Source: a virus. From it: 32,408 bases of DNA. This document shows, piece by piece, positions 6,263 through 32,408 of this stretch (position 1 is the first letter of the stretch; every line of letters begins with the position of its first letter). The DNA lies in IMG/VR virus record IMGVR_UViG_3300035183_001074, positions 1 to 32,408 of that record; one strand, written 5' to 3'. The position numbers were made by a program, and so were the translations under genes. The notes beneath the pieces are model-generated. The model was not told the DNA's origin and searched no databases. It was given only the letters and a program-made list of their open reading frames with translations.

Positions 6263-6268
6263 AGACGC

Positions 6269-6296: not shown

Positions 6297-6319
6297 GCCC
6301 ATTCGACATACCCTATGCA

Positions 6320-6334: not shown

Positions 6335-6350
6335 ATCGAAAGGGCATAAA

Positions 6351-6378: not shown

Positions 6379-6384
6379 GATCAC

Positions 6385-7139: not shown

Positions 7140-7146
7140 AGCGAGC

Positions 7147-7614: not shown

Positions 7615-7742
7615 AGCGCGGAAACCGCCGACGGGCGACTCCCAACAGGCCTAGATTTTGAGGCGGAGGGAGAGAGGGGCAGGGGAGATGGGCGGAGGTG
7701 TCGGGCAGTGGTCGCGCGGCCATAACAATGCGGAGATAGGCG

Positions 7743-14478: not shown

Positions 14479-15027
14479 ATGGACTTTCGTCCCGTACCGC
14501 TGGATCTGGCCTGGGTGACGGGCCGATCGGATCTCAAGGCCATCTATCAACGCCCCGTGCTCAGTTGGGCCGGATCACGCGTCGTCCAGGCCACGGATGC
14601 CGAGGGTCGGCCCCGGTGGGATCTCACGGCGGGGCTGCCGCTGCGGCGGCACATGCACTGGGTCGCCAAGGGCTACCAGTACGTGACGCTCGCCGATGCC
14701 GAGTCGCTGCGCGCGCCGGAGGTCGTCGGATCCCTCCAAGCGCGCGGCCTGCACTGGCGGGACTTTATCTGTGATCCGGCGACGGGATCGCCCTGGTCGT
14801 ACGAAGCGTATCGCGCGTGGGCCGACCAAGCGGCGTCGGAGGCCTCCTCGCAGCAGGATGCGGTGATCGCCCAGTATGGCGCGGAGGTCGTCCGGGCGGT
14901 CGCGAGTGCGCTGACGGGGCAGCGGGCGCCGGATCCCCCCGCGCTGGATGTCGCCCCACCGGTACCTGAGGATCCCCTGCCGGTGCGTCGCGGGCCGGGG
15001 CGGCCCCGGAAGGTGCCCGTGCCGTGA
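14479..15027 (+). CDS. Hypothetical head-region protein with AT-hook-like C-terminus (182 aa)
   Basis: ATG 14479 follows AGGAGGG. The sequence begins MDFRPVPLDLAWVTGRSDLK and stays globular to about residue 120 (RRHMHWVAKGYQYVTLADAE, DFICDPATGSPWSYEAYRAW). The C-terminus, after a Pro-rich linker, is RRGPGRPRKVPVP, which contains the GRPRK core of an AT-hook. A role at the head or connector is suggested only by position. The basic tail could touch packaged DNA. Confidence 0.7.
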   Translation: MDFRPVPLDLAWVTGRSDLKAIYQRPVLSWAGSRVVQATDAEGRPRWDLTAGLPLRRHMHWVAKGYQYVTLADAESLRAPEVVGSLQARGLHWRDFICDPATGSPWSYEAYRAWADQAASEASSQQDAVIAQYGAEVVRAVASALTGQRAPDPPALDVAPPVPEDPLPVRRGPGRPRKVPVP

Positions 15028-15827
15028 GGCTCGCACTCGGGATTATTCTCGCGCATGGATTTCCCGCGCCGAGCGAGTTCTGGCTGAGCCTCTTTCGGGT
15101 CCTCGAATCCATCCGGCGCGGCGAGGGCGGCGTCACCGCGTTGCGGCTTATTCATTCGACCGCGTTTCCCACCGATGTCGCGCGGAATGAGATCGTCCGC
15201 GTCATGCTGGACGAGAGTGAGGCCGACGCGCTCCTCTTTCTCGATGCCGATATGACGCATCCGCCCGATATTGCGGCCCGGCTGCTGGCGCACAATCAGC
15301 CGGTCGTGACCGGCCGCTACCATATGCGCCGGCCGCCGTATCACGTGGTCGCCTACGTGAAGCACCGCACGCTCACGCATGCCCACGCGTATGCGCCCGT
15401 TCATGTCGGCCGAGGCCTCATCGAGATCGAGCGTGGCGGCGCGGGGGCGCTGCTGATTCGCCGCGAGGTGCTCGAGCGCATCCGCGCGCGCATCGGCGAC
15501 AACTGGTTCCGGTATCAGCGCGGCCCACAGGCCCCACACGACTACACGGTCAGCGAAGATTTCTGGTTCTATCAGCAGGCCCGTGCGGCCGGCGCACGGT
15601 GCTATCTCGATTGGGACTGCGAGTGCCAACACTTGCAGCTCGCGGCGATTGATGGCACATGGCAGCGGGCCTATATCCAGGCGCAATTCGACGCGCTCGC
15701 GAGCATGACGCCGGAAGCGCGGCAGCGGGTGGCGGATAGCCTCGTCGTCTGTGGCTATCCGGAGGGGCTGCGCCTGCCGACGGGCGAATGGGTGCCGCCG
15801 TATCAGGTGACGGAGGGCGAGCGATGA
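15024..15827 (+). CDS. Glycosyltransferase-like protein 1 (GT-A type, 267 aa)
   Basis: The GTG start overlaps the previous stop by 4 bases. VARNEIVRVMLDESEADALL leads into LFLDADMTHPPD, where D74-A-D76 is the DxD metal/nucleotide-sugar motif of GT-A enzymes. YTVSEDFWFYQQARAAGARC (E179, D180) supplies the acidic catalytic-loop pattern, and H204 follows. Two other genes here (15824 and 18637) share this whole layout. The enzyme should transfer a sugar from a nucleotide donor. The acceptor is unknown, but its place between head and connector genes suggests a virion protein. No membrane helix is seen, so it would act in the cytoplasm. Confidence 0.8.
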   Translation: MRLALGIILAHGFPAPSEFWLSLFRVLESIRRGEGGVTALRLIHSTAFPTDVARNEIVRVMLDESEADALLFLDADMTHPPDIAARLLAHNQPVVTGRYHMRRPPYHVVAYVKHRTLTHAHAYAPVHVGRGLIEIERGGAGALLIRREVLERIRARIGDNWFRYQRGPQAPHDYTVSEDFWFYQQARAAGARCYLDWDCECQHLQLAAIDGTWQRAYIQAQFDALASMTPEARQRVADSLVVCGYPEGLRLPTGEWVPPYQVTEGER

Positions 15828-16711
15828 TCGCGGCCGATCCGCTGGGGGGGGCGGTGATTCCGCCGCCGGCGCCGCGGCCCGCGGTCATCTGGCTCGGCGT
15901 GCCGACGTTTGGCGTGGTCAGTGTGCCCTGGCATCTCGCCATGCTGCAGCTCCAGACGCCCCTCAATCGCACCGTGCGGCACTGTTATGTCGCCGGTCGC
16001 GAGGTCGGCGAGGCCCGCAACGATCTGGTCCGCCGCGCCCTCGCCTATCTGGGGCCGAGCGGCGAGCGGGTGTCGCATGTGCTGTTCGTCGATGACGATG
16101 TGATCGTCCCGGCCGATGCCATCGCGCGGCTGCTCGCGCATGACCTGCCGCTCGTGAGCGGGCTCTATTATGCGAAGACGGAGGCCGAGCAGCCGCTCAT
16201 CCTGGGCCCGATGGGCACGGGCACCCGGCGCGACTGGCAGCCCGGGGATCTCGTGGCGTGCGAGGCGCACGGCATGGGCTGTACGCTCATCGCGCGCGAG
16301 GTGTTCGAGGTGCTTGATCCGCCCTGGTTTGCGACGGCGATGGCGTGGGTGGGATCGGATGCGGACGGTGCGCCCATTTGGCGCGCCGAGAGCGAAGATG
16401 TCTGGTTCTGCCGGCGCGCCCGTCGCGCCGGGATCCAGCCCGTGGTCGATACGGGCCTCTTTTGTTGGCACTGGTCGCTGACCGAGCATCGGGCCTATCC
16501 GCTCGCGCGGTGGCGGGAGGCGGTGCGGCGGGGCGAGGCGCCGGCCACGGCCTATGTGCCGGACGCGGCGCCCTGGGATGGGCGCAGTATGGCCCCGCCG
16601 GCGGCCCGGGCTGGCCCAGGTGAGGCGCTCGCCGTCGCCGCGGCCACGAGCCCCTGGGAAGGCGACGACGCGTCGGAGAGCCGCCTGCGCGGCCAGGAGC
16701 CCCATGCGTGA
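15824..16711 (+). CDS. Glycosyltransferase-like protein 2 (GT-A type, 295 aa)
   Basis: ATG 15824 overlaps the previous stop as ATGA and follows GGAGG. After a Pro-rich N-terminus comes VIWLGVPTFGVVSV. EARNDLVRRAL and HVLFVDDDVIVP (D90-D92) then match gene 15024, followed by LVSGLYYAKTE, GMGCTLIAREVFEVL and AESEDVWFCRRARRAG (E191, D192), with H216 after that. A run of eight G lies at codons 7-10 (15844-15851) and would put the rest out of frame if its length changed. The disordered, Ala/Pro-rich last 50 residues are unique to this copy. Confidence 0.8.
   Translation: MIAADPLGGAVIPPPAPRPAVIWLGVPTFGVVSVPWHLAMLQLQTPLNRTVRHCYVAGREVGEARNDLVRRALAYLGPSGERVSHVLFVDDDVIVPADAIARLLAHDLPLVSGLYYAKTEAEQPLILGPMGTGTRRDWQPGDLVACEAHGMGCTLIAREVFEVLDPPWFATAMAWVGSDADGAPIWRAESEDVWFCRRARRAGIQPVVDTGLFCWHWSLTEHRAYPLARWREAVRRGEAPATAYVPDAAPWDGRSMAPPAARAGPGEALAVAAATSPWEGDDASESRLRGQEPHA
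15844..15851. repeat. Run of eight G near the 5' end of a glycosyltransferase gene
   Basis: The run lies 20 bases after the ATG of the second glycosyltransferase gene. Runs of this length are prone to slippage, and a change by one base would stop expression. In this copy the gene is in frame. Confidence 0.85.
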
Positions 16712-17797: not shown

Positions 17798-18647
17798 CGC
17801 GGATCTCGGGGCGCTCGAGCCCGAGGCGATCGCGGGCACCTGGGGCGCGGCCTCGTGGCCGACGGCGCGTGACGAAGCCGTGCGCGATCTCCGCATCTGG
17901 CTCGAAGCGGATTATCCCGAGATCCCCGATGTCGCCGATCGTATTCGCGATCAGTGGCGGCCGAGTCGCGTCTGGAGCGCGACGGGTGGCGTCTGGACGG
18001 ATCGCACCACGGAAGCGAGCTCGCTGGACGCCGATGATCTCGCGCTCGCCAGTGTGTTCGCCACGCCGAGCAGCGATGCGCTCTATGTCGGCCTCGGCCA
18101 AGCCTTCGAGGGGCTCTTCGTCCGCATGCTCGCCACGCGGAACAGTAATGCCTCGACCCTCACGGCCTCGTATTGGGGCCCCACGGGTTGGACGAGTCTG
18201 GGCGCCGAGGATGGCACCAAGCAAGGATCGGCGACGTTTGGCCGCACCGGTCGCGTCAGCTGGGCGATGCCCATCGACTGGGAGCTGCGCGAGCTCCAGG
18301 ACGAGGGCATCGTGCGATACTGGGTGCGGCTTACCGTCTCGGCCGCGTTGAGCAGCGGCACGGCCGCGGGGCAGATCCTCCCGATCCGGCCGCCCACGGG
18401 GCTCCGGCGCGTCGCCACCTATCTCGCCCTGGCGCATGTCTGTCGAGGCCTCGCGCCGAAGGCCTCGGAGCCCGCGTTCTGGACGGATCGGGCCGCGTGG
18501 TATCACGACCAGGCCACGGCGCTCTACGCGCGCCTCCGGTCACAGGGCGGCATCCCCATTGATCTCGATGGCGACGCGTCGGTGAGCCCGCCGACGGAAA
18601 TCCCCTCGCCGAAGACGCGCAGCGTCAAGGTGTACCGTGCCGGATGA
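17766..18647 (+). CDS. Probable neck/connector structural protein (293 aa)
   Basis: ATG 17766 follows AGGAGG by 10 bases and lies inside the methyltransferase end. The first 60 residues are helical (TARDEAVRDLRIWLEADYPE). A beta-sandwich-like middle (ALYVGLGQAFEGLFVRMLA, YWGPTGWTSLG, WAMPIDWELRELQDEGIVRY) follows, then a helical block (VATYLALAHVCRGLAPKASE). The order resembles phage head-tail connector proteins with an added beta domain. Its place before the tail terminator gene agrees. No enzyme motif is visible. Confidence 0.6.
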   Translation: MAWSSLSLVTDADLGALEPEAIAGTWGAASWPTARDEAVRDLRIWLEADYPEIPDVADRIRDQWRPSRVWSATGGVWTDRTTEASSLDADDLALASVFATPSSDALYVGLGQAFEGLFVRMLATRNSNASTLTASYWGPTGWTSLGAEDGTKQGSATFGRTGRVSWAMPIDWELRELQDEGIVRYWVRLTVSAALSSGTAAGQILPIRPPTGLRRVATYLALAHVCRGLAPKASEPAFWTDRAAWYHDQATALYARLRSQGGIPIDLDGDASVSPPTEIPSPKTRSVKVYRAG

Positions 18648-19413
18648 CCGCCGCTGTCTCGTGGCCGTCTGCACGAATTGGCCGTCGATCCCGACGCCGA
18701 CGGCCATGTCGCTGATGGAGCTCGGCTGGGGCGATCGCATCCCGCGCGCCAAAGCCGAGACGGGCTTTGCGGCGATTGACTTCCTGTGGGCGCGCGGCTT
18801 CCCCCGCGTCGACGCGCTGCGGAATTGGGCCGCGCGGCAGGCCCTCGCCGCGGGCTATTCGCATCTGCTCTATCTCGATGCGGATAATGTATGGCCCACC
18901 GATGTGCTCGCCCGCCTGCTGCGTCACGCGGATCGCGATATCGTCGGCGGCCTCTACGTGATGCGCGGTGAACCGTACGCGCCCGTCGCCCTCGTGCGCG
19001 GGCACCGCCAGCCGGATAGCGACATTACCGCCTACGAATATGACCACGAGGCCATCTGGGCGCAGGCGCTCCGCGAGGTCGAAGTCCTCGGTATGGGCTG
19101 CACGCTGATTCAGACTCAGTGGTTCGCGCGTCTGCCCGGGCCGCACTGGTTCGCGTACCGCGATGATGCGGAGGGCTGGCCAGCCGTGACCGAAGATGTG
19201 CCGTTCTGCGAGGCGGCGCGGGCCGCGGGCGCGCGGATTTGGCTCGATCCGACGATTGTGTGCGGGCATGTCACGCAGGTGCTGACCGATGTCCGGTGGC
19301 ACCAACGCTGGCTGCAGGCGCAGCGCACGCCACCCCCGGTACCCACGCGGGTCACCTGGCGCGAGCAGGTCGATCCGTCGGCCGCGGACCCGGCACCGGC
19401 CGCCCACGGATAA
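18637..19413 (+). CDS. Glycosyltransferase-like protein 3 (GT-A type, 258 aa)
   Basis: The GTG at 18637 follows AAGGTG and overlaps the connector gene by 11 bases. VDALRNWAARQAL, HLLYLDADNVWPTDVLARLL (D81, D83), VGGLYVMRGEPYAP and GMGCTLIQTQWF match the two earlier copies in order. WPAVTEDVPFCEAARAAGAR (E186, D187) and H211 complete the set. The invariant RN, DxD, G-x-G and ED positions show common descent, yet the copies differ elsewhere, so they probably use different acceptors or donors. Confidence 0.8.
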   Translation: MPDDRRCLVAVCTNWPSIPTPTAMSLMELGWGDRIPRAKAETGFAAIDFLWARGFPRVDALRNWAARQALAAGYSHLLYLDADNVWPTDVLARLLRHADRDIVGGLYVMRGEPYAPVALVRGHRQPDSDITAYEYDHEAIWAQALREVEVLGMGCTLIQTQWFARLPGPHWFAYRDDAEGWPAVTEDVPFCEAARAAGARIWLDPTIVCGHVTQVLTDVRWHQRWLQAQRTPPPVPTRVTWREQVDPSAADPAPAAHG

Positions 19414-21604: not shown

Positions 21605-21935
21605 TCATCCGCATGTGCGCTGCTGCCACTGGGCGACGCCCGAGGAGCAGCGCCTGCGGCCGGAGAAATACGATTGCCGCACGTGCGCGTGGCGCCTCCA
21701 ACACGCGCAGCTGTGGGTGATCAATCAGGAGGCGATCGCGTTGGCCCAGCTCCTGGGGAGCCGCGCGGTCGCGGAGACGCAATCGGCGGCCGCCGTCTTG
21801 GCCCGTTGGTTGGCGGATCATGCGTGGGCCGAGGCGGAGGATATGATCCGCCGCCTCGATCTGATCTTCGAGATCCTGGTGCCGCATGGCGGCGAGTCGC
21901 GAGATTACCATCCGCATCGTCGCGGAGACGGCTGA
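21570..21935 (+). CDS. Frameshift extension of the tail assembly chaperone (about 121 aa)
   Basis: This frame opens after a TGA at 21519-21521 and runs to 21935. It has no ATG or ribosome site near its start; the first possible GTG is at 21615 with nothing before it. A +1 shift at TCC TTT CGC (codons 21563-21571) would let the Phe tRNA slip from TTT to TTC. The fused sequence then reads EASF|ANLRAYLEWRADHP, a smooth join. The extension has CCHW and CRTCAW knuckles and helices (EAIALAQLLGSRAVAETQSA). The fusion would have about 266 residues. It overlaps the tape-measure start by 50 bases. Confidence 0.7.
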   Translation, partial: ANLRAYLEWRADHPHVRCCHWATPEEQRLRPEKYDCRTCAWRLQHAQLWVINQEAIALAQLLGSRAVAETQSAAAVLARWLADHAWAEAEDMIRRLDLIFEILVPHGGESRDYHPHRRGDG

Positions 21936-24627
21936 CGCCCAGCAGCGCCTGGGCGCGATCCGCGATCGGATCGAGCAGCTGGGGCGCGACGTCAAGGCGG
22001 GCGCGATCTCCTGGGACCAGTACGAAACGCAGCTGCAGGCGGTCGTGCACGATGCCGATCGGCTGCAGAAAGAGCTGAGCCAGACCGCCCGCGTCACGCA
22101 GGATCAGACGCAGGCGACGCAGCGTGGGACCACGGCGCTCCAGGACCTCCATAGCCTGCTGCTGCGCTACGTCTCGGCGGCGGCCATCGGATCGGCCATC
22201 CGATCGACGACCGAGTGGGCCGGTCGCCTGACGGATCTCGCCGCGCGCACGGGCATTTCGACGCAGACCCTGCAAAAGTTCGAGCTCGCGGCCAAGCTCA
22301 CGGGGGGCACGCTCGATGAGGTCGTGATCGCGACGCAGCGGTTGCAGCAGCGGCTTTTTGATCCCACCACCAACAAGAGCGTCGTCGCCGCGGCCGAGCG
22401 CCTGGGGCTCTCCTTCAAGCAATTGCGGGAGCAGCGGCCCGATGAAGCCTTCGCGGCCGTCGCCCAAGCCTTGGCCCAGATCGAGCGGCCCGGGGAACGG
22501 GTCGCGCTCGTGACCGAACTGATGGGGCGCGGCGCCGAAGGCGTCCTGCCGGCGATGTTGGCGCTGGCCGACGTCCTGAAGCAGGACGTGCCATTGGCCT
22601 CCGAGGCATCGCTCCAGAAACTGGATGATCTCGGCGATGCGATCAGCGAGCTGTGGCAGCGGGGCAAAGTCCTCATCGCGGAGATCTTCACGCCGTTGGT
22701 TCCGATTCTCCAGGCGCTCGCGGGTCTGCTGCGGCTCCTGCAGCCGCTGATCAGCGGCGTGGCGACGGCCTTCGCGAAACTCGTGGATGCGATGGCGGGC
22801 CGGGCGCTCCGGGAAGCGCGCGAGAATCTCACTCTGTGGTTCGGCACGGTGGCCCCGCCTGGCGCGCCCGGACGGCCACGCCTGCCGATGGGCGAACCGA
22901 TCACCGCGCCAGGCCTACCGCCCGATCTCGATCAGATTCTGCGCCAGCCGATTGCCACGCCCTCGGAGGGGGGCCGCGCGAGCGCACGAGGGCGACGCGC
23001 GTTTGTCGCGGGCGTCACGATCCGGCCGATGACGCCCGAGGATGCCGCGGCCTGGGTGGCGGCCATGCCGACATTGCCCCTGCCGCCCCCCGAAATCATG
23101 CGCACGGGCCTGGTCCCGGCGCGCGGCCTGCCGGGCGGCGGGATGATCACGCTGCCGCTGTCGCCGACACCCGTCTCCCCAGGGACCGCCCGGATCCCCT
23201 GGTTCGAGCGCCTGTTCGGGACGGACTTTGCGCCCTCGATCGCGTCCACGATCCTCGGCTCGCTCATGGGCGGCGGATCGGTGGGCCGCAGCCTCGGGGG
23301 CCTCGCCGGCGGCGCGTTCTTCTCGGGATCCGTCGGCAATCTCCTGGCGCGCGGCGCGATGAATCTCTTCGGATCGACGATCGGCGGGGCGCTGGGATCG
23401 ATCCTGCCCGGCGTCGGCACCTGGCTGGGGTCGATGGTCGGCGGGCTCTTCGGCAAGCTCTTTGGCGGCAGCGAAGAGTCGCGGGTCGTCAATCCCAAGC
23501 GCGATGAGTTCCTCGCGCAGTTTGGGGGCGCCCAGGCGTTGGCCGCGCGCTTGGCGGAGCTGCCGGTCTCGATGGGCGGGGGCGTCGGCGGCGGCCGCCT
23601 GATGCAGGATCTGTTTGACGCGAAGAAAGCTAAAGACTTCGAGCAGGCCGTACGCAACATCGTCAACGCCCTCGAACAGTATGAAGCGACGCAGGGCCGC
23701 ATCAAGACGCTCGAATCGCAGATCGAGACGCTCCGTAAGCAACAGGCCGTGAGCTGGAAGGACATGGAGCGCATCGCGCGCGAGTATGGCATCGAGATCG
23801 ACGCGCTCGGGCAGGAGTTCCAGCAGCTGAAGGGCACGGACTTTGCCACGAAGATTCTGAACGATTTCGACGTCCTCAAGCGCGGTGGGGCGGACGTCGG
23901 CACGATCCTGTTCGGGATGAAGGAAGAGTTCAGCGAGCTCGTCCGCTTTGCGCTCAAGTTCGGCGTGGCCCTGCCCGAGAATCTCCGGCCGATGGTCGAA
24001 GAGCTCGCGCGCGCGGGGCTGCTGACCGACGAGTTCGGCAACAAGATCGAGGACGTCTCACAGCTCACATGGGGCGAGCCCGTCAAAACGCAGTCCGAGA
24101 TCCTGGGCGATGCGATTCAGAAGCTCGTCGAGGAGCTCGAAAAGTTGCGCCAGACGTTGGCGGGGGAGCTGCCGCGTGGGGCCCGCGAGGGCCTCGAGGA
24201 GACCGACCGGATTCTGCGCGGGTATGAGCCGCCCGAGATCGAGGTGCCCTATCGCTTCCGGGCGCATGGGCCGGGACCGGGCGAGGGCGGGGGGGACGAG
24301 TTCGCGTCGGCCGGTGGCCTCGTAACGCCCGACGGCCTGCGCACCTTCGCGCGCGGCGGCCTGGTGCGGGGCTTGGATCGCATCCCGGCGCTCTTGGAAC
24401 CGGGCGAATTCGTCTTCTCGCGCGGGGCCGTGCAGCGGCTCGGCGCGCGCGCGCTGCAGGCGCTCAATCGCGGCGCGAGCTTCGCGGTGGGTGACATTCA
24501 TGTGACCGTCGATGCGCGCGAGTCCGTCTTTGATGAGGTCTCGGCGCAAGCGCTCGCGCGGAAGCTGGCGACAGCGTTGACGACAGAGCTGCAGCGCCGC
24601 GGCGGCCTAACGCCGGTGGTGGCCTGA
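21886..24627 (+). CDS. Tail tape measure protein (913 aa)
   Basis: The longest gene in the window follows the chaperones. It opens with SREITIRIVAETADAQQRLG and a long charged/Gln-rich coiled coil with regular heptads (RIEQLGRDVKAG, DRLQKELSQTARV). A TP901-like core follows (TTEWAGRLTDLAARTGIS). Residues about 443-528 are a Gly/Ala/Leu hydrophobic stretch (TILGSLMGGGSVGRSLGGLA and on) suited to membrane contact during DNA ejection. A second coiled coil (QYEATQGRIKTLESQIETLR) comes after it. At about 0.15 nm per residue, a tail near 135-140 nm is expected, though this ignores processing. Confidence 0.9.
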   Translation: MAASREITIRIVAETADAQQRLGAIRDRIEQLGRDVKAGAISWDQYETQLQAVVHDADRLQKELSQTARVTQDQTQATQRGTTALQDLHSLLLRYVSAAAIGSAIRSTTEWAGRLTDLAARTGISTQTLQKFELAAKLTGGTLDEVVIATQRLQQRLFDPTTNKSVVAAAERLGLSFKQLREQRPDEAFAAVAQALAQIERPGERVALVTELMGRGAEGVLPAMLALADVLKQDVPLASEASLQKLDDLGDAISELWQRGKVLIAEIFTPLVPILQALAGLLRLLQPLISGVATAFAKLVDAMAGRALREARENLTLWFGTVAPPGAPGRPRLPMGEPITAPGLPPDLDQILRQPIATPSEGGRASARGRRAFVAGVTIRPMTPEDAAAWVAAMPTLPLPPPEIMRTGLVPARGLPGGGMITLPLSPTPVSPGTARIPWFERLFGTDFAPSIASTILGSLMGGGSVGRSLGGLAGGAFFSGSVGNLLARGAMNLFGSTIGGALGSILPGVGTWLGSMVGGLFGKLFGGSEESRVVNPKRDEFLAQFGGAQALAARLAELPVSMGGGVGGGRLMQDLFDAKKAKDFEQAVRNIVNALEQYEATQGRIKTLESQIETLRKQQAVSWKDMERIAREYGIEIDALGQEFQQLKGTDFATKILNDFDVLKRGGADVGTILFGMKEEFSELVRFALKFGVALPENLRPMVEELARAGLLTDEFGNKIEDVSQLTWGEPVKTQSEILGDAIQKLVEELEKLRQTLAGELPRGAREGLEETDRILRGYEPPEIEVPYRFRAHGPGPGEGGGDEFASAGGLVTPDGLRTFARGGLVRGLDRIPALLEPGEFVFSRGAVQRLGARALQALNRGASFAVGDIHVTVDARESVFDEVSAQALARKLATALTTELQRRGGLTPVVA

Positions 24628-24629: not shown

Positions 24630-25982
24630 ATGGGCATCTCGGGATCGCAGCTCGCCCCCACGTATGCGCGCGCGAATCGGGCGCGATTCGGCGCGGCCCG
24701 GACGGACTACTACCGGCCCATCAATCTGCATCTGCGGATCAATGGGAGTCCCGTCGGATCGCGGCTGGATGTGTCCTCGTTCACCCTGACGCTCGAACGC
24801 GAGGCGTCGACGCTGAGTTTCGTGCTCTTGGGTGGCACGGCCCCCACGGTGGGCCAAGAGGTCGTGGCCGGATTGGGATCGGCGGACAATCGCCTCTTCG
24901 GCGGGCGGATCGTCTCGATCACGACGCACGTGGGCTTTCGCGTGGGCGCGCGCGTGCAGTATCTGTGTCAGGCCGTCGATTACACGTTCGACTTCAAGCG
25001 CCTGGTGCTGAGACGGTATACCAATTGGTCGGCGTCGGCGATGGTCGCCGATCTCATGACGCGGTTCGCGCCCAATTTTTCGATCAACCACGTGCAGACG
25101 GGCCTGCCGGTCATCAACGAGATGGCCTTCACGATGGAGAGCGTCCCCGCCGCGCTCACCCGGATCGCGCAGGCCGTCGGCGCGAGCTGGTACGTGGATC
25201 CCAACAAGGATCTGCATTTCTTCACGACCGATACGACCAAGGTGACCGTCGAAGCGATCACGGCGAGCAGTCTCCATGAATGGCGGCATCTGCAGCATAC
25301 GACCGATCTGAGCGGGGTGCGGACGCGGGTCTATGTCGAAGGTCGTGGCGGGCCGCTGAGGCAGAACTGGAACGCGTCCTACGAACTGGGCCAGCTTTAC
25401 GTCGATGAGGCGCCGATCCTCTTCGCGGACCCCACGATCATCTCGCCCGCCTATGTGCGCGTCAAGCAGGCGCGCGTGCGGTATCAGTTGATCCACAGCA
25501 CGCCTCCGCCGACCTATCTGGTCGTCCACAGTGAATCCGTGGGCGAGGCTCTCTCACATCCCCAACAGGCCGTCGTTGGAGAGGACGTGAATCAATGGGT
25601 CGAACGGAATGACACGAGCGCGCAAACGGCCTTGGCGGGTCTGGAGGGCGGCGATGGCATTCGCGAGGCCTACGTCCAGGATCGCCGCCTGAGCTATGAC
25701 GGCTGCGTGGCCCGTGGAGATGCCGAGCTCGCCGTGCGCGCCACGCCCGATGAGGCGATTACCTATGAGACCCGCGATCCGAACAGCTGGCCGGGGCGTT
25801 CGGTCACGGTGAATGTGGCGGGGATCAGCGGAACATATCGGATCCAACGGGTACAGTTGCGCGGCATCGAGCTCGATGGCCGGAACGACTTTCCGCTTCG
25901 GCGGGTCTGGGCCACGAATCGCCCACGCGATTTCTACGCCTACTTGCGCGAGTTCGAACAGAGCACGGCACGACGATCGTGA
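24630..25982 (+). CDS. Tail hub / baseplate-type protein (450 aa)
   Basis: The protein is beta-rich: INLHLRINGSPVGSRLDVSS, STLSFVLLGGTAPTVGQEVV, RLFGGRIVSITTHVG, then FNLK-like repeats. AMVADLMTRFAPNFSI and TRIAQAVGASWYVDPNKDLH follow. The sequence of an OB-like barrel, small alpha/beta units and a LysM-like patch resembles the gp27/gpD-type hub at the tail tip. It follows the tape measure directly, as hubs do. I see no catalytic motif. A precise family is not assigned. Confidence 0.7.
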   Translation: MGISGSQLAPTYARANRARFGAARTDYYRPINLHLRINGSPVGSRLDVSSFTLTLEREASTLSFVLLGGTAPTVGQEVVAGLGSADNRLFGGRIVSITTHVGFRVGARVQYLCQAVDYTFDFKRLVLRRYTNWSASAMVADLMTRFAPNFSINHVQTGLPVINEMAFTMESVPAALTRIAQAVGASWYVDPNKDLHFFTTDTTKVTVEAITASSLHEWRHLQHTTDLSGVRTRVYVEGRGGPLRQNWNASYELGQLYVDEAPILFADPTIISPAYVRVKQARVRYQLIHSTPPPTYLVVHSESVGEALSHPQQAVVGEDVNQWVERNDTSAQTALAGLEGGDGIREAYVQDRRLSYDGCVARGDAELAVRATPDEAITYETRDPNSWPGRSVTVNVAGISGTYRIQRVQLRGIELDGRNDFPLRRVWATNRPRDFYAYLREFEQSTARRS

Positions 25983-25988
25983 GGGTAT

Positions 25989-26564
25989 ATGGCCGCGACG
26001 ACGATTTCCCGCGCGACGATTACCGACGATGATGGGTCGGGCACGACCGGCACGATCCTCAATAGTGCCTGGGTCAACAGTGCCATCTATGACCGCATCG
26101 ATGCGCTCTTTACGCAGCAGACGTTCGAGCTCGAGTCCGCGCATGCGGGCACCAGTAAAACGCTGACGGTCGCCAATACGAGTAACACGTCGTCATCATC
26201 GACTCTCCTCGTGATTACGGTCGGTGGCTCGAACGCGGGGAATCCATATATCCAATACAACGTCCAAAACATGACGTCGTGGGCCCATGGGATCGATAAC
26301 AGCGATAATGACAGTTGGAAGTTGGCACCGTCGGCCACCGTGTCCGTCAATACAGCCCTGACGGTGACGGTCAGCCGGCGCGTCATCATTGCCGGTGGCT
26401 ACAGCGCGCCCACGGGCGTGCTCGAAATCACCGGCCGTCCCGTTACCTCCCTGCCCGCCGGGAGTGCCAGCGAAAACGGACGACTCGAGATCGACACGAC
26501 GAACAACCGCTTGGTCTATTATGCCGGCGGCAATCGGTACTATCTCGTGGGTGGAACTTTCTGA
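25989..26564 (+). CDS. Beta-rich tail fibre-like protein (191 aa)
   Basis: ATG 25989 follows GAGGG by 3 bases. The start ATITDDDGSGTTGTILNSAW and the following NSAIYDRIDALF resemble the N-terminal attachment part of many phage tail and fibre proteins. A Ser/Thr/Asn-rich beta region (VANTSNTSSSSTLLVITVGG) and a C-terminal tip of the kind that ends in Gly/Tyr (RLVYYAGGNRYYLVGGTF) follow. The last residues fit a trimeric fibre tip. Receptor binding is possible but not shown. Confidence 0.6.
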   Translation: MAATTISRATITDDDGSGTTGTILNSAWVNSAIYDRIDALFTQQTFELESAHAGTSKTLTVANTSNTSSSSTLLVITVGGSNAGNPYIQYNVQNMTSWAHGIDNSDNDSWKLAPSATVSVNTALTVTVSRRVIIAGGYSAPTGVLEITGRPVTSLPAGSASENGRLEIDTTNNRLVYYAGGNRYYLVGGTF

Positions 26565-26566
26565 TC

Positions 26567-26827
26567 ATGGATCAGCCTTCGACGCCCGCCGGCGAGATCG
26601 CCGCGCGGTTGGATCCCGCCACCTATTGGCGGCTGCGGGCCTTGCAGTGGGCCTGGGAGCGCGCCCAGTGGCGCGCCGAAGCCTGGCGCTGGCGCGCGGA
26701 GATGGAGCGGCGCGAGTACGAGGCCGCTTTCGCGCAGGTCGCGCGGGAGTTGGCCCTCGATCCCGCTCGCGCCTATACCTGGGATGATGCCGCCTGCGCC
26801 TGGCGCTGGCCGGAGCCGATGCCATGA
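26567..26827 (+). CDS. Small Trp-rich hypothetical protein (86 aa)
   Basis: The ATG lies 2 bases after the previous stop. The core is a long helix crowded with Trp, Arg and Glu (LRALQWAWERAQWRAEAWRW, then AEMERREYEAAFAQVARELA), followed by YTWDDAACAWRWPEPMP. I see no membrane helix or signal peptide. Its function is unknown. It is the first of several short genes leading to the lysis-like pair. Confidence 0.6.
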   Translation: MDQPSTPAGEIAARLDPATYWRLRALQWAWERAQWRAEAWRWRAEMERREYEAAFAQVARELALDPARAYTWDDAACAWRWPEPMP

Positions 26828-27006
26828 CCCGGATCGATCGGCCGGAGCGGGACTGCCCACATTGCGATGGGCGCGACGCCGCGGAATGGGACGCCATTCT
26901 GCGCCGCTGGGTCTGCCCGCGCTGCGCGCGCGCATGGCCGCCTCGCGTGCCCGATGAGACGGTCGATCCCGAGTGCGCGCGGACGGATGTGGGAGCCTCG
27001 CCGTGA
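26824..27006 (+). CDS. Small zinc-ribbon-like protein (60 aa)
   Basis: The ATG overlaps the previous stop by 4 bases. DCPHCDGRDAAEWDAILRRW and VCPRCARAW supply two CxxC pairs (C11/C14 and C31/C34), the pattern of a zinc ribbon. The sequence after about residue 40 is acidic. It might recruit or regulate the proteins of this small-gene group, but no function can be named. Confidence 0.65.
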   Translation: MTRIDRPERDCPHCDGRDAAEWDAILRRWVCPRCARAWPPRVPDETVDPECARTDVGASP

Positions 27007-27554
27007 CGACACGCCAAGCGGCGCGGGTGGCCTGGGTGCGGCAGGCCCTCTGGCCGGCGACCCGGGCGCTCTTGCCGCCTGAGATGGGCTCGGATGATGC
27101 CCTGGCCCTCTTGGTCGCCATCGGCTGGCAGGAATCCCGGTGGTCAGCACGTCGGCAGATGGAGGGGCCCGCGCGGGGGTTTTTGCAGTTCGAGCGCGCC
27201 GGCCTGGATGCCGTGCTGCGCCACCAGGCCACGCGCCGGCCGGCCACGTCCCTGGCGTACGCCTTGGGCTATCCGGCCGACGTGGCGGCCCTCTGGGACG
27301 CGATCGCCGACAATGACGTGCTGGGCCTAGGCCTCGGACGTCTGTTGCTCTGGAGCCTGCCTGAGCGGCTGCCGGGGCCATCCGAACCGGATCGGGGCTG
27401 GGCCCAGTATCGGGCCGCCTGGCAGCCCGGACGCCCGAGGCCCGAGACATGGCCCGAGGCGTGGGCCATTGGCTGGGATCAGCGGGAGGACCGCCATGCT
27501 CTACGTGGCCGTCGCCGGCACGTGGGCGCAGCACGACGCCGACACGGCGATTGA
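27003..27554 (+). CDS. Lytic transglycosylase / lysozyme-like protein (183 aa)
   Basis: The GTG overlaps the previous stop. LLVAIGWQESRWSARRQMEG (with E44 in the QES motif) followed by ARGFLQFERAGLDAV matches the core of lysozyme-like transglycosylases: the catalytic Glu, then the G-x-x-Q-F segment. The remaining helices (LAYALGYPADVAALWDAIAD, LGLGLGRLLLWSLPE) fit this fold. It would cut peptidoglycan for host lysis or for tail-driven entry. The last 30 residues overlap the next gene by 59 bases and are basic. No holin or export signal is evident. Confidence 0.7.
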   Translation: MTTRQAARVAWVRQALWPATRALLPPEMGSDDALALLVAIGWQESRWSARRQMEGPARGFLQFERAGLDAVLRHQATRRPATSLAYALGYPADVAALWDAIADNDVLGLGLGRLLLWSLPERLPGPSEPDRGWAQYRAAWQPGRPRPETWPEAWAIGWDQREDRHALRGRRRHVGAARRRHGD

Positions 27555-28164
27555 CCCGTGGCGGGATTGGTGGCACCCACAATCCCACTATGCCGCCGAG
27601 CTCCGGGTGTTGGGGTGGACGCCACTTCGGCCCGATCCCTTCCGGTGGTCCACGGATCTCGATGGCACATGGCTGCAGCGCCTCGTCCAGCGCCGACGCT
27701 GGGGCGATTGGCTGGCCGCCGCCTATGCCCTCTGCTACTACTGCGATCAGGCGCCCCAGGGCGCGCGCCCGAGAGGCCCCCGCAGGCCGGCGGATCGTCC
27801 CGTGCTGATCGCGCATTCACACGGCGGCCAAGTCGCCCTCCTCGCCACGGGTCTCTTGGGTCTCTCTGTCGCCGGCCTCGTCACCGTCTGCACGCCCGTG
27901 CGCGCCGATGTGCTGGATCTCGTCGGCGCCGACGCGCCGCAGCCGTGGTGGCACCTCTATAGCGATGGCGCCGATCGCTGGCAGTGGCTCGGCGAGTGGG
28001 GCGATGGCCTGTTGCGCGTCGCGCGCCAGATGCCCCCGCCGGCGATCAATCTCCCGGCTGCCGTCGGCTTCGGTCATACTGGCCTGCTGACGACCCGCGC
28101 GGGGCTCCGCGTCTGGCCCGATCTGCTGCGGCGCCTCGAGGCGGCCGTATCGCGGGAGCCATGA
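27496..28164 (+). CDS. Alpha/beta hydrolase, esterase- or LysB-like (222 aa)
   Basis: ATG 27496 follows GGAGGA by 5 bases, so the longer frame at 27469 is not needed. The first strand MLYVAVAGTW, the nucleophile elbow IAHSHGGQVALLA (S108), the strand AGLVTVCTPVRAD, an Asp in LYSDGADRW (D157 or D160) and a His in GFGHTGLLT (H194) give a complete catalytic triad. The enzyme probably hydrolyses an ester in the host envelope. LysB enzymes of mycobacteriophages do so, but have a different motif around the Ser. Position next to a lysozyme-like gene supports an envelope role. Confidence 0.75.
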   Translation: MLYVAVAGTWAQHDADTAIDPWRDWWHPQSHYAAELRVLGWTPLRPDPFRWSTDLDGTWLQRLVQRRRWGDWLAAAYALCYYCDQAPQGARPRGPRRPADRPVLIAHSHGGQVALLATGLLGLSVAGLVTVCTPVRADVLDLVGADAPQPWWHLYSDGADRWQWLGEWGDGLLRVARQMPPPAINLPAAVGFGHTGLLTTRAGLRVWPDLLRRLEAAVSREP

Positions 28165-28526
28165 CCAGCGAGGATCTCTGGCGACAGCTGCGCGGCGAGC
28201 GCGATGCGTGGCGGGATTTCGGCTTGCGTGCCTTGGCGGTGCTTGCGACGATGGTGGAGGGCGAGAGTGTCCCGCTGGTCCCGGCTCGTGAGCTGCTGCG
28301 ACGGGCGGCCCGCCAAGCCGTGGGCGTCTGTGGCGGATCGCACCGCGCGGCGGCGAGGCTCCTGGGGCTGTCACCGCGGATGCTCTCGTACTATCTGGCG
28401 GAGGGGTCCGAGGCCGATGCTGCCGATTCCGACGCGCCTGGCCACGGTCGTGGCGACGCTCTCGCGCCTCGGCGCGGACGCCCTCGCCCACGAGGTCGTC
28501 GAGACGCTGCAACGGCTGCCCATTGA
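28161..28526 (+). CDS. Fis-type helix-turn-helix protein (121 aa)
   Basis: The ATG overlaps the hydrolase stop by 4 bases. ELLRRAARQAVGVCGGSHRA followed by AARLLGLSPRMLSYYLAEG (about 45-81) matches the Fis/HTH_8 fold: the helix with CGG and the LLGLS..ML.YYL recognition helix. Such domains end bacterial enhancer-binding regulators. Here the domain stands alone with a short helical N-terminus. The C-terminal 40 residues are low-complexity and lie within the next gene. It could bind DNA during late transcription. Confidence 0.65.
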   Translation: MTSEDLWRQLRGERDAWRDFGLRALAVLATMVEGESVPLVPARELLRRAARQAVGVCGGSHRAAARLLGLSPRMLSYYLAEGSEADAADSDAPGHGRGDALAPRRGRPRPRGRRDAATAAH

Positions 28527-28707
28527 CGCCGTCGTCCTCGAGGTGGATGGGCGGCTTGTGCTGGCGCCCTATTGGGAATTGTTCTGCCTCGAAGTCGAAG
28601 CGGTGCGCCACGTGGATCGCGCGAGCGCAGCACGCCTCGACTGGTTGGCGTGGGTGTGGCGGCAGACGCTCGCGTCCACCCCGCATGTCTCGTCCACGCG
28701 CGTCTAA
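28417..28707 (+). CDS. Small hypothetical protein overlapping the Fis-type gene (96 aa)
   Basis: The start at ATG 28417 lies inside the preceding gene, giving a 110-base overlap. The sequence looks folded: LATVVATLSRLGADALAHEV, then AVVLEVDGRLVLAPYWELFC and RLDWLAWVWRQTLA. This helix, strand pair, helix order is more protein-like than the read-out in the other frame. A GGAGGG lies 12 bases upstream. The function is unknown. Confidence 0.6.
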   Translation: MLPIPTRLATVVATLSRLGADALAHEVVETLQRLPIDAVVLEVDGRLVLAPYWELFCLEVEAVRHVDRASAARLDWLAWVWRQTLASTPHVSSTRV

Positions 28708-28721
28708 GGAGTCACGAGCTG

Positions 28722-29459
28722 ATGGCCACGATCCCTCGCACCGTCACCCCGGCCGGGCGCCTCCGCCTTGTGCGGCACTCGCCGCCGCGCGTCGGCTGGC
28801 GCTGGCATCTGCAGAACTGGCTGCGCTACCGTCGTCACGATCTCTGGCGCCAGGTCATCCAGGCCCTCGCGGCCGCGCATCGCGAGATCATTGTGGCGCG
28901 CAGCACCCTGCGGCTCGCGACCTATCGGGCCGCCTGGGACGAGTTGGCGCCTTGGCAAGCCGAGACCTTGCGCCGCCTGCTCGCCGAGAATCACCCGGTC
29001 GCGTATCTGCCCGCGCACTTTGGGGGGCACGTGGTCGACTACGGCGTCGTGAGTACGCGCGTCGTGACCAACGCGGGCGTCAACTATCTGGTGGATTCCC
29101 TGCAGGGCACAGTCGAGCCAGAGAACTTGCGCTATCACGGCTTCGGCACCGGCACCAACGCCGAATCGGCGTCCGATACCGCGCTGCAGACCGAGCTAAC
29201 GACTCAGTACAACCCCGATAACACGCGGCCGACGGGCTCGCTGGGCGAAGGGGCCAGCGCCAACGTCTTCCGCACGGTCGGCACGCTCACGCCGGATAGT
29301 GGCGGCACGATCGCCATCACCGAGCACGGGATCTTCTCGCAGGCCGGCACGGGCGGGGGTACGCTGCTCGATCGGTCGGTGTTTGCGGCGAACAACATCA
29401 CGGCCGGCAGCGACAGCCTGCAGGCGACCTACGATCTCACGCTGAGCTCGGGAGGCTAA
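28722..29459 (+). CDS. Virion-associated structural protein (245 aa)
   Basis: ATG 28722 follows AAGGAG by 11 bases. The first 100 residues are helical and basic (WHLQNWLRYRRHDLWRQVIQ, AWQAETLRRLLAEN-like). The rest is beta-rich with VTNAGVNYLVDSLQG, HGFGTGTNAESASDTALQTE, TVGTLTPDSGGTIAITEHGI and LLDRSVFAANNITAG. This block resembles a conserved phage virion domain that I have seen with similar GTG, TEHGIF and LLDRSVF patterns. I cannot name the family or its place on the particle. Confidence 0.7.
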   Translation: MATIPRTVTPAGRLRLVRHSPPRVGWRWHLQNWLRYRRHDLWRQVIQALAAAHREIIVARSTLRLATYRAAWDELAPWQAETLRRLLAENHPVAYLPAHFGGHVVDYGVVSTRVVTNAGVNYLVDSLQGTVEPENLRYHGFGTGTNAESASDTALQTELTTQYNPDNTRPTGSLGEGASANVFRTVGTLTPDSGGTIAITEHGIFSQAGTGGGTLLDRSVFAANNITAGSDSLQATYDLTLSSGG

Positions 29460-29463
29460 TATC

Positions 29464-29874
29464 ATGGGGCGACGCCTGATCCGGGTCATCGTCGGGCTCA
29501 CGCTGATCGCGGCCTGGAACCACACGGCGGTCGCACAAACGCCGATCCCGCCCCCGAGCGGGCCGGTCGTCTTCTGCGCCGAGCAGACGCCGCCGGCGGC
29601 GGACAGCTATCAGCTCCGTTTCGATGGCGGGGCCCTCGAACCGCTGACGATGGATGCCTCGCTCGATTCCGCCTGCGCCGGCGTGTCGGGCGCCACGCAC
29701 TCGTTCCGGCTGCCGGCCGCGCGCTTCACGGTTGGGACGCATACGCTCCAGGTGCGCGCCAGGAACGCGTTCGGATCGACCGATGGGCCGGTGTTCAGCG
29801 TCGTCGTCGGCATTGCACCCGGGCCCCTGACCATCAAGGCGGTGATCGCGCCGTCGGGCGGCGGCCTCGAATGA
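29464..29874 (+). CDS. Exported Ig/FN3-like small protein (136 aa)
   Basis: The ATG follows GGAGG by 9 bases. MGRRLIRVIVGLTLIAAW is a typical signal sequence with a likely cut after AVA (about residue 24). The mature part is one beta domain (YQLRFDGGALEPLTM, SFRLPAARFTVGTHTLQVRA, SVVVGIAPGPLTI), with Cys residues near positions 38 and 70 that could form a disulfide. The motif APGPLTIK near the end recurs as APGPLMIR in the product of 30104. It may be a surface or periplasmic protein. Confidence 0.65.
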   Translation: MGRRLIRVIVGLTLIAAWNHTAVAQTPIPPPSGPVVFCAEQTPPAADSYQLRFDGGALEPLTMDASLDSACAGVSGATHSFRLPAARFTVGTHTLQVRARNAFGSTDGPVFSVVVGIAPGPLTIKAVIAPSGGGLE

Positions 29875-30104
29875 CCCGGCGATCCGCCCTCCGGGTGATC
29901 GGCCTCATCGCGGGCGGGGCGGGCCTGAGTGAGACCCCGCCCGCGTGGGCCACCCGTCTGGCGGACGCCTCTCGGCGTCGGCCCGTCCTCACGATCGACC
30001 TCGGCCAGTGGGACGCCATCGTCGTGCGGCATCCCGTCTATGGGCGGGAACCCTACGCCGCGGATCCGGCCGAGATCGCGCGGGCATTGGCCGCGGAGGA
30101 CTGA
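29871..30104 (+). CDS. Small protein with Tat-like signal (77 aa)
   Basis: The ATG overlaps the previous stop by 4 bases. MTRRSALRVIGLIAGGAGLS has the twin-Arg pattern (T-R-R-S-A-L) and a hydrophobic stretch typical of Tat export. A cut near AWA is possible. The remaining part, LTIDLGQWDAIVVRHPVYG and an acidic helix, is short. The overlap pattern shows it is co-translated with the two exported proteins around it. I recognise no family. Confidence 0.55.
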   Translation: MTRRSALRVIGLIAGGAGLSETPPAWATRLADASRRRPVLTIDLGQWDAIVVRHPVYGREPYAADPAEIARALAAED

Positions 30105-30460
30105 TGCGCTTGGCGCTCCTCGTGGCCCTGCTCGCCCAAACGCCCACCATGCGCCAGGTCGAAGTGCGGTGGAACCTCGATCCGTCGCACGAAGGCGTCA
30201 CGACGTGGCAGATTGAGGCGGATGGCACGCTCGCGCCCTGTACGGATGTCGCGGTGGGCTCGACGTATCGACGCTGCGTCTGGGTGGCGGAGGCGCGACC
30301 ATACCGGGCGATCCGGCTGCGTGGCATCCGAGATGTGTGCGTCGCTGCGGACGGCACCGTGCTACAGCCCTGTGCCGGCGCGTGGTCCGAGCCCATCGCG
30401 GCCGACCTGTCAACCGCCGCGCCGGGGCCGCTGATGATTCGGCAACTGCGAGGAGGGTGA
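30104..30460 (+). CDS. Exported Ig/FN3-like small protein (118 aa)
   Basis: The ATG overlaps the previous stop as TGATG. MRLALLVALLAQTPTM is a short signal-like sequence. The mature part has strands (VEVRWNLDPSHEGVTTWQIE, VAVGSTYRRCVWVAEARPYR, IRLRGIRDVCVAADGTV) and four Cys, enough for two disulfides. APGPLMIRQL near the end echoes the gene at 29464, so the two may be diverged copies. Confidence 0.6.
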   Translation: MRLALLVALLAQTPTMRQVEVRWNLDPSHEGVTTWQIEADGTLAPCTDVAVGSTYRRCVWVAEARPYRAIRLRGIRDVCVAADGTVLQPCAGAWSEPIAADLSTAAPGPLMIRQLRGG

Positions 30461-30463
30461 TCG

Positions 30464-30970
30464 ATGCCGCGGATCTCGATTCTCAACGCGGTCAACTACG
30501 ACGCGGGGGTATTTGACGATCTGGTGAGCAACCAGATCACGGCGGCGGCCGCGCCCTCGGTCGGCAACCAGATCTGCACGGTCATCTCGGACGCCGGCAC
30601 CAGCCGGGGGATCTACGGGCGGTTCACCGTACCGCAGGACTACACGGGATCGCCGGTGCTCCGGATCGTCGGCATCCTCGATGGGGCGCCGGGGGCCAGC
30701 GACGTGCTGGCCTTCGGCTTCCGCAAGCGCAGCGTGGCGGACAATGCCGCCGCGGACGGGACGTTCGACGCCGCGAACACGGGCTCGCTCACGATCGGAT
30801 CGTCGGGTGGCAACTACGCCGACGAAGATCTCGTCGTCCTCACGATCACGCTCACGGCCGCAGACTACGCGGCGGGTAACGAGGTGTTCTACTGGCTCTA
30901 CATCGATGCCACGCCGAACACCTACGCGGGCAACCTCCTGCTCTGCGACGTGGAGTTCCAGTACGCCTGA
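30464..30970 (+). CDS. Beta-rich structural protein (168 aa)
   Basis: The ATG follows AGGAGG by 8 bases. The sequence is Ala/Thr/Asp-rich and beta-type: ISILNAVNYDAGVFDDLVSN, GRFTVPQDYTGSPVLRIVGI, LVVLTITLTAADYAAGNEVF and YWLYIDATPNTYAGNLLLCD. This looks like a jelly-roll-type decoration or fibre-associated protein. It lies directly before the LamG-like fibre gene, which suggests a fibre or tip role. I assign no family. Confidence 0.6.
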   Translation: MPRISILNAVNYDAGVFDDLVSNQITAAAAPSVGNQICTVISDAGTSRGIYGRFTVPQDYTGSPVLRIVGILDGAPGASDVLAFGFRKRSVADNAAADGTFDAANTGSLTIGSSGGNYADEDLVVLTITLTAADYAAGNEVFYWLYIDATPNTYAGNLLLCDVEFQYA

Positions 30971-30981
30971 GAGCGCCGGCC

Positions 30982-32408
30982 GTGTCGCACAATCACGCGC
31001 CGAACAATTCGTGGCTCATCACGACGGCCAATGTCCCGACGTTTGCGCCCTGGACGGTCTCGCTCTGGTTTCGTGGGTCCACTGGCGCCGGCACCTGGCG
31101 CGGCCTCTTCCAGTGGGTCGACGTGAGCGGGCAGATCTGGATTGGCATCAGCGATGCAAACCAGATCGAACTGTGGATCGAGGGCGACACGACTGGCACG
31201 GTCGTGCTGTCGTCGGTGTCGTTGAACACGTGGTACTGGGTCGGGTTGGTCTCAGCGTCGATGACGAGCCGGACGGGCTACGCCTCCGATGGGATGGGGA
31301 CGATCGCGTCTGGGACGAATACCCGCAGCCTCTCCGCTTCCAATCCGCAGAGCATGCGGATTGGCAACTCGACGTTCAATGAGCCGTGCAAGAGCGAGAT
31401 CGCCGCCATCAAGATCTGGTCGGCGGCGCTGACGCTCGACGAACTCCGCGCCGAGCGTGACAGCGTCGAGCCCAAGCGGCGCGCGAATCTGAATCGCTGG
31501 ACCCCCTGCTGGAGTGCCAGTGATGCCAGAGACTACGGGCCGTTGCAAAGCAACTGGACGGCCAACGGCACCATCGTCACCGGCGTCAATCCGCCGATTC
31601 GGTACCGGCGTGGGACCACCCGACGGGCGAAGGTGGTCGGTGGCGGATCGTTCACGGTGTCGGTCGCCGGTACACTCAGCTCCTCCGGTGCGCTGCTGAA
31701 AGACGCGTCGCGACGCTTCTCGGCGACTCTGACGCCCTCAGCCGCCGTCCTCCGATCCGCCCAGAAGGGCTTGGCGGCTTCGCTCACCAGTGCGGGCTCG
31801 ATCCGCCGCCAACCGCAACGCACCGTCGGCGGCACGCTCACCATGGCCGGCGCCCTCGATCTCGTGCGCGCCCTGACCGTGGCCCTGGCTGGCACGATCA
31901 CGTCAGCCGGGGCGCTCATCCGACGCGCGGATCTGCTGCGCGGAGGCGTCCTGGCCCCCTCAGCCGCCATAATCCGATCCGCGCAGAAGGGCCTCGCGGG
32001 CTCACTCACCAGTGTGGGCGGCCTCGCGCAGGCCGTCAGCCGCCGTCTCGTGGGTGCTCTCACCCCGACGGGGAGCGCGACGATCACCAAGCAGATCCAG
32101 ATTGCTGTCGCTGGCACCCTGGCCTCAGCCGGCAGTCTGGCGCGCCAAGCGCAACGCGCCCTCGGTGGCACCCTGGCCTCCAGTGGCATACTCGCGCGGA
32201 CGGCGGCGCGCAGCGTCACGGGCGCCATCTCATCGACGGGCGGCCTCGCGCAGGCCGTCAGTCGCCGTCTCGTCGGTGCCGTCACCCCGACGGGCAGTCT
32301 GACGGTCACCAAACAGATCCAGATCGCCCTGGCTGGCGTCCTAGCGTCCGCCGGCAGTCTCGCGCGCCAGGCGCAACGACGGATCGGTGGCACGGTGGCC
32401 TCGAGTGG
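30982..32408 (+). CDS. LamG-like fibre/adhesin with 18-residue repeats, 3' end cut by window edge
   Basis: The frame starts at GTG 30982 (SHNHAPNNSWLITTANVPTF) and stays open to the right edge (about 475 codons). The first 200 residues look like a LamG/concanavalin jelly roll (FAPWTVSLWFRGSTGAG, IELWIEGDTTGTVVLSSVSL, RIGNSTFNEPCKSEIAAIKI), a sugar-binding fold. From about residue 225 the protein is an array of units of 18, 18, 18 and 20 residues, each with a hydrophobic-G-x-L-x-S-x-G core. The likely role is a receptor-binding fibre, with the solenoid as its shaft. The start is uncertain because no strong ribosome site is visible. Confidence 0.7.
   Translation, partial: MSHNHAPNNSWLITTANVPTFAPWTVSLWFRGSTGAGTWRGLFQWVDVSGQIWIGISDANQIELWIEGDTTGTVVLSSVSLNTWYWVGLVSASMTSRTGYASDGMGTIASGTNTRSLSASNPQSMRIGNSTFNEPCKSEIAAIKIWSAALTLDELRAERDSVEPKRRANLNRWTPCWSASDARDYGPLQSNWTANGTIVTGVNPPIRYRRGTTRRAKVVGGGSFTVSVAGTLSSSGALLKDASRRFSATLTPSAAVLRSAQKGLAASLTSAGSIRRQPQRTVGGTLTMAGALDLVRALTVALAGTITSAGALIRRADLLRGGVLAPSAAIIRSAQKGLAGSLTSVGGLAQAVSRRLVGALTPTGSATITKQIQIAVAGTLASAGSLARQAQRALGGTLASSGILARTAARSVTGAISSTGGLAQAVSRRLVGAVTPTGSLTVTKQIQIALAGVLASAGSLARQAQRRIGGTVASS
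31717..32408. repeat. 222-bp superrepeat within the fibre gene
   Basis: Three successive 222-bp units (31717-31938, 31939-32160, 32161-32382) plus the start of a fourth can be aligned in frame. Each encodes four repeats of 18, 18, 18 and 20 residues. Stretches such as CCGATCCGC (31752 and 31974) and GGCCTCGCGCAGGCCGTCAG (32020 and 32242) recur at exactly 222 bp. The array continues beyond the window. Confidence 0.85.

Follow-up and report, generated by a model that had tools for sequence, protein, structure and literature searches.

The window analysed here, 32,408 bases long, is an entire virus record (IMGVR_UViG_3300035183_001074). On its plus strand, a tape-measure gene is followed by a weak match to a baseplate hub, by ORF295 and by a gene that joins a LamG domain to an array of short repeats. 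The latter gene starts with GTG at position 30982 and is open past the window end; the repeats lie in frame within it. The features are as follows:

21886-24627, plus strand: tape-measure gene (PHROG tape-measure matches, best E 3.4e-14)
24630-25982, plus strand: weak baseplate hub match (PHROG, E 0.001)
28572-29459, plus strand: ORF295, conserved neighbour of the arrays, with a PHROG 5417-like C-terminal domain at 29025-29456
30982-32408, plus strand: LamG and repeat-array gene (ORF call and translation), complete in the sibling contig L002 at 5335-6975 (546 aa)
31021-31446, plus strand: Laminin_G_3/concanavalin-A-like domain (residues 14-155; Pfam PF13385)
31381-31650, plus strand: linker or adapter segment (residues 134-223), from comparison with the second LamG gene of L002
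31666-31887, plus strand: superperiod block 1 (18,18,18,20), from unit parsing
31888-32109, plus strand: superperiod block 2 (18,18,18,20), from unit parsing and DNA self-comparison
32110-32331, plus strand: superperiod block 3 (18,18,18,20), from unit parsing and DNA self-comparison
32332-32408, plus strand: first part of block 4, truncated by the window end (the L002 copy has further 18-residue units up to residue 522, then a 24-residue tail)
31828-31887, plus strand: 20-residue unit 4, from unit parsing
32050-32109, plus strand: 20-residue unit 8, from unit parsing
32272-32331, plus strand: 20-residue unit 12, from unit parsing

The LamG-like character of the N-terminal domain, claimed in the original prediction, was supported by Pfam: PF13385 matched at E 2.3e-8 with 34.7 bits (cut-off 27.6) over profile positions 10-150 of 151. 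That prediction had also proposed to count the repeats by extending the sequence to the right. The rest of the gene was supplied by L002 (IMGVR_UViG_3300036768_001403), which is 99.956% identical to window positions 25648-32408 (6,761 bp). There, the 546-residue product consists of the LamG domain, the linker, 16 units in all and the 24-residue tail; the units occupy residues 229-522 and run 18,18,18,20 three times, then 18 four times.

The predicted array of 18+18+18+20 residues with a superperiod of 74 residues was clearly recovered. BLOSUM autocorrelation of the L002 array gene, compared with 500 residue shuffles, peaked at lags of 74 (z = 22.6) and 18 (z = 12.5), with further signals at lags of 148 (z = 10.9) and 6 (z = 5.1). 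The array starts at about 31666, however, and not at 31657 as first given. On the DNA level, identity within the array at a lag of 222 was 58.4%, compared with 31.4 ± 4.4% for codon-phase lags. Describing stretches of the copies 222 bp apart as near-identical was too strong: the best copies were 79% identical over 196 nt (31991-32186 and 32213-32408) and 83% over 69 nt, and the sole exact run of at least 15 nt at this lag comprised 24 nt (32016-32039). Tandem Repeats Finder, run on the window, did not report the array.

Codon usage was then informative about how the array grew. At a lag of 74 residues, the same codon was used at 74 of 119 identical residues, a count attained by 0 of 2000 codon shuffles (48.0 ± 4.9); the 222-bp blocks were therefore duplicated stepwise as DNA. 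Adjacent blocks shared 20/32, 29/45 and 25/42 codons, separated blocks fewer (9/23 and 14/28). Growth of the 74-residue blocks in the window by DNA duplication, mainly from neighbour to neighbour, is thus supported. At a lag of 18, the excess of shared codons was not significant (40/81 compared with 34.1 ± 4.1 in codon shuffles; P 0.09). The single 18- and 20-residue units look much older than the block duplications.

Relatives of the array were collected in two ways. When viral contigs were searched with a two-unit DNA pattern, 11 stretches were found; with a four-block profile, the yield was 30 loci. Together, the array-based searches yielded 34 distinct arrays of at least six anchors (46 raw rows). 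This set was found by patterns of the G-T-L type, and its consensus is biased accordingly. The other search used the ORF295 domain alone as the query, which contains no part of the array, and from its 401 confirmed loci, the best 80 were retained; the resulting set is free of the G-T-L bias, and T-P turns are present in it. Pooling gave 89 arrays (32 + 57, the latter from the best 80 of 401 ORF295 loci) that are distinct by a shared-8-mer rule, with a median of 13 units and a range of 4-34. Thus, the array is not unique to the window, and the number of units varies among relatives.

Unit lengths were strongly restricted in both sets. Spacings in the 34 arrays were 18 (335 cases) and 20 (88), with 34 for all other values, and the 793 units of the ORF295-search set (best 80 of 401 loci) measured 18 residues in 594 cases, 20 in 172 and 19 in 14. 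One array (L127:6420-8234) departs from the preference for even lengths, most of its units being read as 19 residues long. The 18-residue consensus of the 34 arrays is G-T-L-T-S-A-G-A-L-V-K-Q-T-S-K-A-L-A, from which the 20-residue unit departs after position 9, and the motif of the array family can be written as G-T-L-T-S/P-A-G-A-L-x-K-x-x-x-K-x-L-A. Across 1174 units, a turn of the form T-P/S-x-G was evident: its glycine, at position 7, was present in 87% and a proline at position 5 in 45%. Position 1 was likewise a glycine in 88% of units, and K/R occupied positions 11 and 15 in 85% and 77% of the 18-residue units. The same residues, but not the same DNA, recur in the 89 arrays, often behind a LamG or another N-terminal region. 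This speaks against an origin of the periodicity in repetitive DNA alone, with the ORF untranslated in the array frame, which the G+C content of 69% and a long antisense ORF over the array (31533-32408, minus strand; probably itself a by-product of the G+C content) might otherwise suggest and which we regard as highly improbable.

No model in Pfam, NCBIfam or PHROG describes the repeat, and NCBIfam gave no match at all to the full protein. Laminin_G_3 (PF13385) proteins share the N-terminal domain, whereas the repeat array is outside any curated model searched. PHROG 18536 (function not assigned) matched array segments weakly (window, E 0.0011; L039, E 1.6e-5), but among the arrays of 10 relatives scanned, it matched that of L039 alone and thus cannot serve to define the family. 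Arrays also gave scattered, weak matches in Pfam and PHROG (e.g., aldolase, E 1e-4, below the cut-off), which were rejected as composition matches. In tblastn searches of 50,697 annotated phage records, the whole array protein found none at E 1e-3, the window array five records at E up to 10 (best E 2), the L039 array none at E 0.1 (and none in 72,556 plasmids at E 1e-3) and the L025 array a single match at E 0.1, to MW202615.1 (E 1e-4). A long plus-strand ORF of that record (L050:4710-7709) carries an 18/20-residue array nearly free of glycine; in its place, the annotation of MW202615.1 has a hypothetical protein on the opposite strand (5774-7585). Cellular genome contigs contained two stretches with the G-T-L pattern, which would miss the common T-P variants, and neither carried an array of at least six units. 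In PDB sequence searches, the best E values were 0.66 for the array profile and 1.2 for the whole protein, and open-access PMC, searched with exact terms only, gave no account of an 18-residue phage repeat, of LamG with repeats or of tape-measure repeats. Modular phage adhesins with repeat shafts are already known. Judged from sequence, this is thus a repeat family without a curated model in the libraries searched, in what would be a known kind of protein.

The alternation of 18- and 20-residue units was not confined to the window. Two or more consecutive 18,18,18,20 blocks were present in 21 of the 89 distinct arrays, and the rhythm is therefore more than a local duplication. At least two 20-residue units occurred in 66 arrays, one in 20 and none in three. 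Where the gap between 20-residue units was measurable (62 arrays), 21 arrays kept it at two 18-residue units throughout, 17 at three and four at another constant value; the other 20 were mixed. In the 57 arrays of the ORF295 set, gaps of two (40) and three (31) clearly exceeded those in shuffles (14.2 ± 3.5 and 10.3 ± 3.0, respectively). The excess persisted in 15 arrays without block similarity, where units in equivalent phase resembled each other no more than they resembled the rest: 34 gaps of two or three, compared with 12.7 ± 3.1 and a maximum of 24 in 3000 shuffles. Block duplication alone does therefore not explain the rhythm. In these tests, each array counts as an independent case, an assumption that relatedness among the phages violates; common descent might be the source of the rhythm. 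Exceptions to the 18/20 rhythm are 23 gaps of zero in the 57 ORF295-set arrays and a few arrays (L075, L077, L087 and L091) that consist chiefly of 20-residue units. It is conceivable, and we propose it only tentatively, that the rhythm reflects a structural rule in a fibre fold not yet described, with a shaft of fixed pitch, which serves as a platform for exchangeable heads and whose rhythm is kept by selection. Keeping the coils or strands in register would then require a 20-residue unit behind each run of two or three 18-residue units (a superperiod of 56 or 74 residues); selection would maintain the rhythm while sequences turn over, and the shaft would be common to many phages of uncultured hosts.

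When the window proteins were compared with the array loci by tblastn, ORF295, above all its C-terminal domain, was found to adjoin most arrays. Among the best 80 of 401 loci retrieved with this domain, the window's own contig (L051) was set aside; of the other 79, 67 had an array score above 40, whereas the maximum in the 79 reversed loci was 20.2. Positions were counted in 57 of the 67 array-bearing loci, leaving out ten that were mostly near-duplicates. The array shared the strand of the ORF295 domain in all 57, downstream of it in 33 and upstream in 24, and the distance between the two was within 2.7 kb in 56 and 5.3 kb in one. An array above 40 was absent from 12 of the 79 loci, several of which are short contigs, but two of which measure 12.4 kb (L057 and L078). 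The ORF295 domain matched PHROG 5417 in 14 of 15 members examined (E 3.8e-14 for that of the window); a tail-fibre PHROG was matched weakly by one of the 15 (E 0.0047) and a head-protein PHROG by one. PHROG 5417 is without assigned function, and it matches the neighbour gene, not the array. ORF295 had no tblastn match in the 50,697 phage records at 1e-4, and a PDB sequence search with it returned nothing.

The regions attached to the arrays differed between relatives. According to Pfam, LamG also precedes the array in L028 and L038; sub-cut-off, weak matches were seen to Kelch after the array of L041 and to lipocalin-like and DUF6250 families in L011, and no Pfam family was found for L022, L027, L030, L035, L037 and L044. 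L009/L021 and L031 are a close pair with different N-terminal domains and units: their flanks and arrays are 91-96% identical on the DNA level, yet the L031 ORF has a region of 236 residues before the array that is absent in L009/L021, and the arrays differ by one unpaired 20-residue unit and at one place where an 18-residue unit in one stands against a 20-residue unit in the other. The variation in repeat number that the original prediction had proposed to look for among relatives was thereby observed as a net difference of one 20-residue unit. In L002, the array gene is followed by a second LamG gene (6964-7712). Its linker is identical to that of the array gene in 82 of 90 aligned residues (residues 134-223), whereas its LamG body has diverged (only 54 of 126 residues identical to residues 1-133). 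The two LamG genes of L002 are separated by a duplicated 3′-terminal stretch of the ORF that precedes the array gene (window 30868-31032).

The carbohydrate-type head, the exchange of heads and the paralogous LamG genes, in which the heads diverge and the linker stays, argue for an adhesin of the tail region, and the order of tail genes on the plus strand was counted in favour as well. We therefore consider it probable, with moderate confidence, that the array gene encodes a modular virion adhesin of an uncultivated tailed phage, composed of a LamG head and a long, basic, duplicating and beta-rich stalk. The head would bind glycans, judging from the domain type, and the stalk, probably beta-rich and oligomeric, would hold it off the virion or dock it there. 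Stalk length would change by duplication or loss of units and of 74-residue blocks, and the binding module would be swapped by recombination. Counted against this reading were that PHROG 5417 has no function, that a tail-fibre PHROG was matched by only one of the 15 ORF295 domains and that 12 of 79 ORF295 loci are without an array above 40; the putative placement on the virion is read from gene position and domain content. The orientation counts against it too: usual fibres carry a distal head at the C terminus, whereas the LamG head here lies N-terminal to the array. Host range is set by the proteins that carry the binding heads of phages, and for phages that have not been cultured, few of the shafts behind such heads have been catalogued. 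The 89 arrays of uncultivated phage contigs observed here have a single motif and strict unit lengths in common, with heads that vary and a neighbour gene that is conserved. If the array is a fibre shaft, environmental phages could be searched with it for probable receptor-binding loci, and its naturally varying repeat numbers would lend themselves to work on shaft geometry.

The fold of the array was approached from the unit itself. The T-P/S-x-G pattern is expected of beta-turns; together with the glycines at positions 1 and 7 and the two-residue steps, it favours beta structure, and the even unit lengths count in the same direction because a length change of two residues (18 versus 20) keeps beta alternation. 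Beta is thus the favoured fold, with a helical alternative that stems from segment 8-17 of the 18-residue unit: its hydrophobic moment was 0.50 at 100 degrees and 0.08 at 170, and the helix moment exceeded the beta moment in 92% of 335 units. This helix-like moment counts against a beta stalk, as do the helices that AlphaFold2 predicted at low confidence for window units 5-12 (39 rows; pLDDT 34.7). Both would fit an array that is no rigid shaft but flexible and basic, in part an amphipathic helix, with envelopes, LPS or nucleic acid as its binding partners; the net charge of the 34 arrays (mean +8.6 per 100 residues, range 3.4 to 13.4) and their composition (G+A+S+T 54%) would fit it as well. 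A continuous helix would, however, be broken by the two-residue insertions and by glycine at positions 1 and 7; such strict spacing is also unusual for disorder, and a flexible segment of this kind is considered unlikely.

A different prediction was obtained with the more regular array of the relative L025 (316 aa, 9-row alignment), for which AlphaFold2 built an all-beta model in which each unit forms roughly one long strand (pLDDT 57.6, pTM 0.50). This model suggests a monomeric parallel beta-solenoid with one coil per 18-residue unit, in which 20-residue coils would carry a two-residue bulge. Among 124 Foldseek-ranked chains re-aligned with VIA-align 2, which re-aligns solely chains ranked by Foldseek, the beta-helical antifreeze protein 3p4g_B came first (Z 21.3, rmsd 3.1, 266 aligned), followed by curli CsgA (8c50_A; Z 15.8, rmsd 9.8), so that the low-confidence model aligns with parallel beta-solenoids. 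Foldseek itself, however, gave nothing significant in the PDB (best E 0.038, TM about 0.2) and nothing at E 0.001 or better in BFVD (best E 0.0013), and the more diverged array of the window gave no such fold. Nor did the array follow the rules of two known solenoid types. Left-handed hexapeptide beta-helices have an aliphatic residue at every sixth position, three per coil, whereas the best phase of the array was hydrophobic in 0.98, 0.97 and 0.07 of the units at the three positions. RTX calcium-binding beta-rolls have an aspartate-bearing nonapeptide in each turn; with 3 acidic residues in 293, the L002 array is too poor in acids for such a calcium-binding motif per unit, which sets it apart from the RTX-type 3p4g. 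According to PMC11795689, AlphaFold2 frequently builds solenoids from perfect repeats, and stacked uncompensated charges are a warning sign. Because of this over-prediction, and because K/R recurs at two unit positions (11 and 15) with few acids, the L025 model was not taken as the fold, and a monomeric solenoid is considered improbable.

Repeat size, Gly/Pro in the turn, the mixture of short and long units and the vicinity of tail genes would also fit a trimeric fibre, that is, a triple-beta-spiral or a related fold as in the shafts of adenovirus fibre and reovirus sigma1, which are likewise surface-attachment proteins with tandem short units; for a trimer, a monomer prediction would be expected to fail. 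The triple-beta-spiral consensus given in PMC3150272 requires hydrophobic residues at c, e, g, k and m and G/P at j. When the 335 18-residue units were compared with this consensus in all 18 ungapped registers, none reproduced it: the best register had a mean hydrophobic fraction of 0.56 with G/P at j in 1%, and in the registers with G/P at j, the fraction was 0.13-0.15. The hydrophobic positions of the array are therefore off those of the adenovirus and reovirus shafts, and with no PDB sequence match to the repeat profile below E 0.66 either, a trimeric fibre of this type appears quite unlikely.

Apart from the array gene, the structural gene region of the window contains three PHROG 1574-like proteins (15024-15827, 15788-16711 and 18637-19413), two of which have glycosyltransferase PHROG matches.
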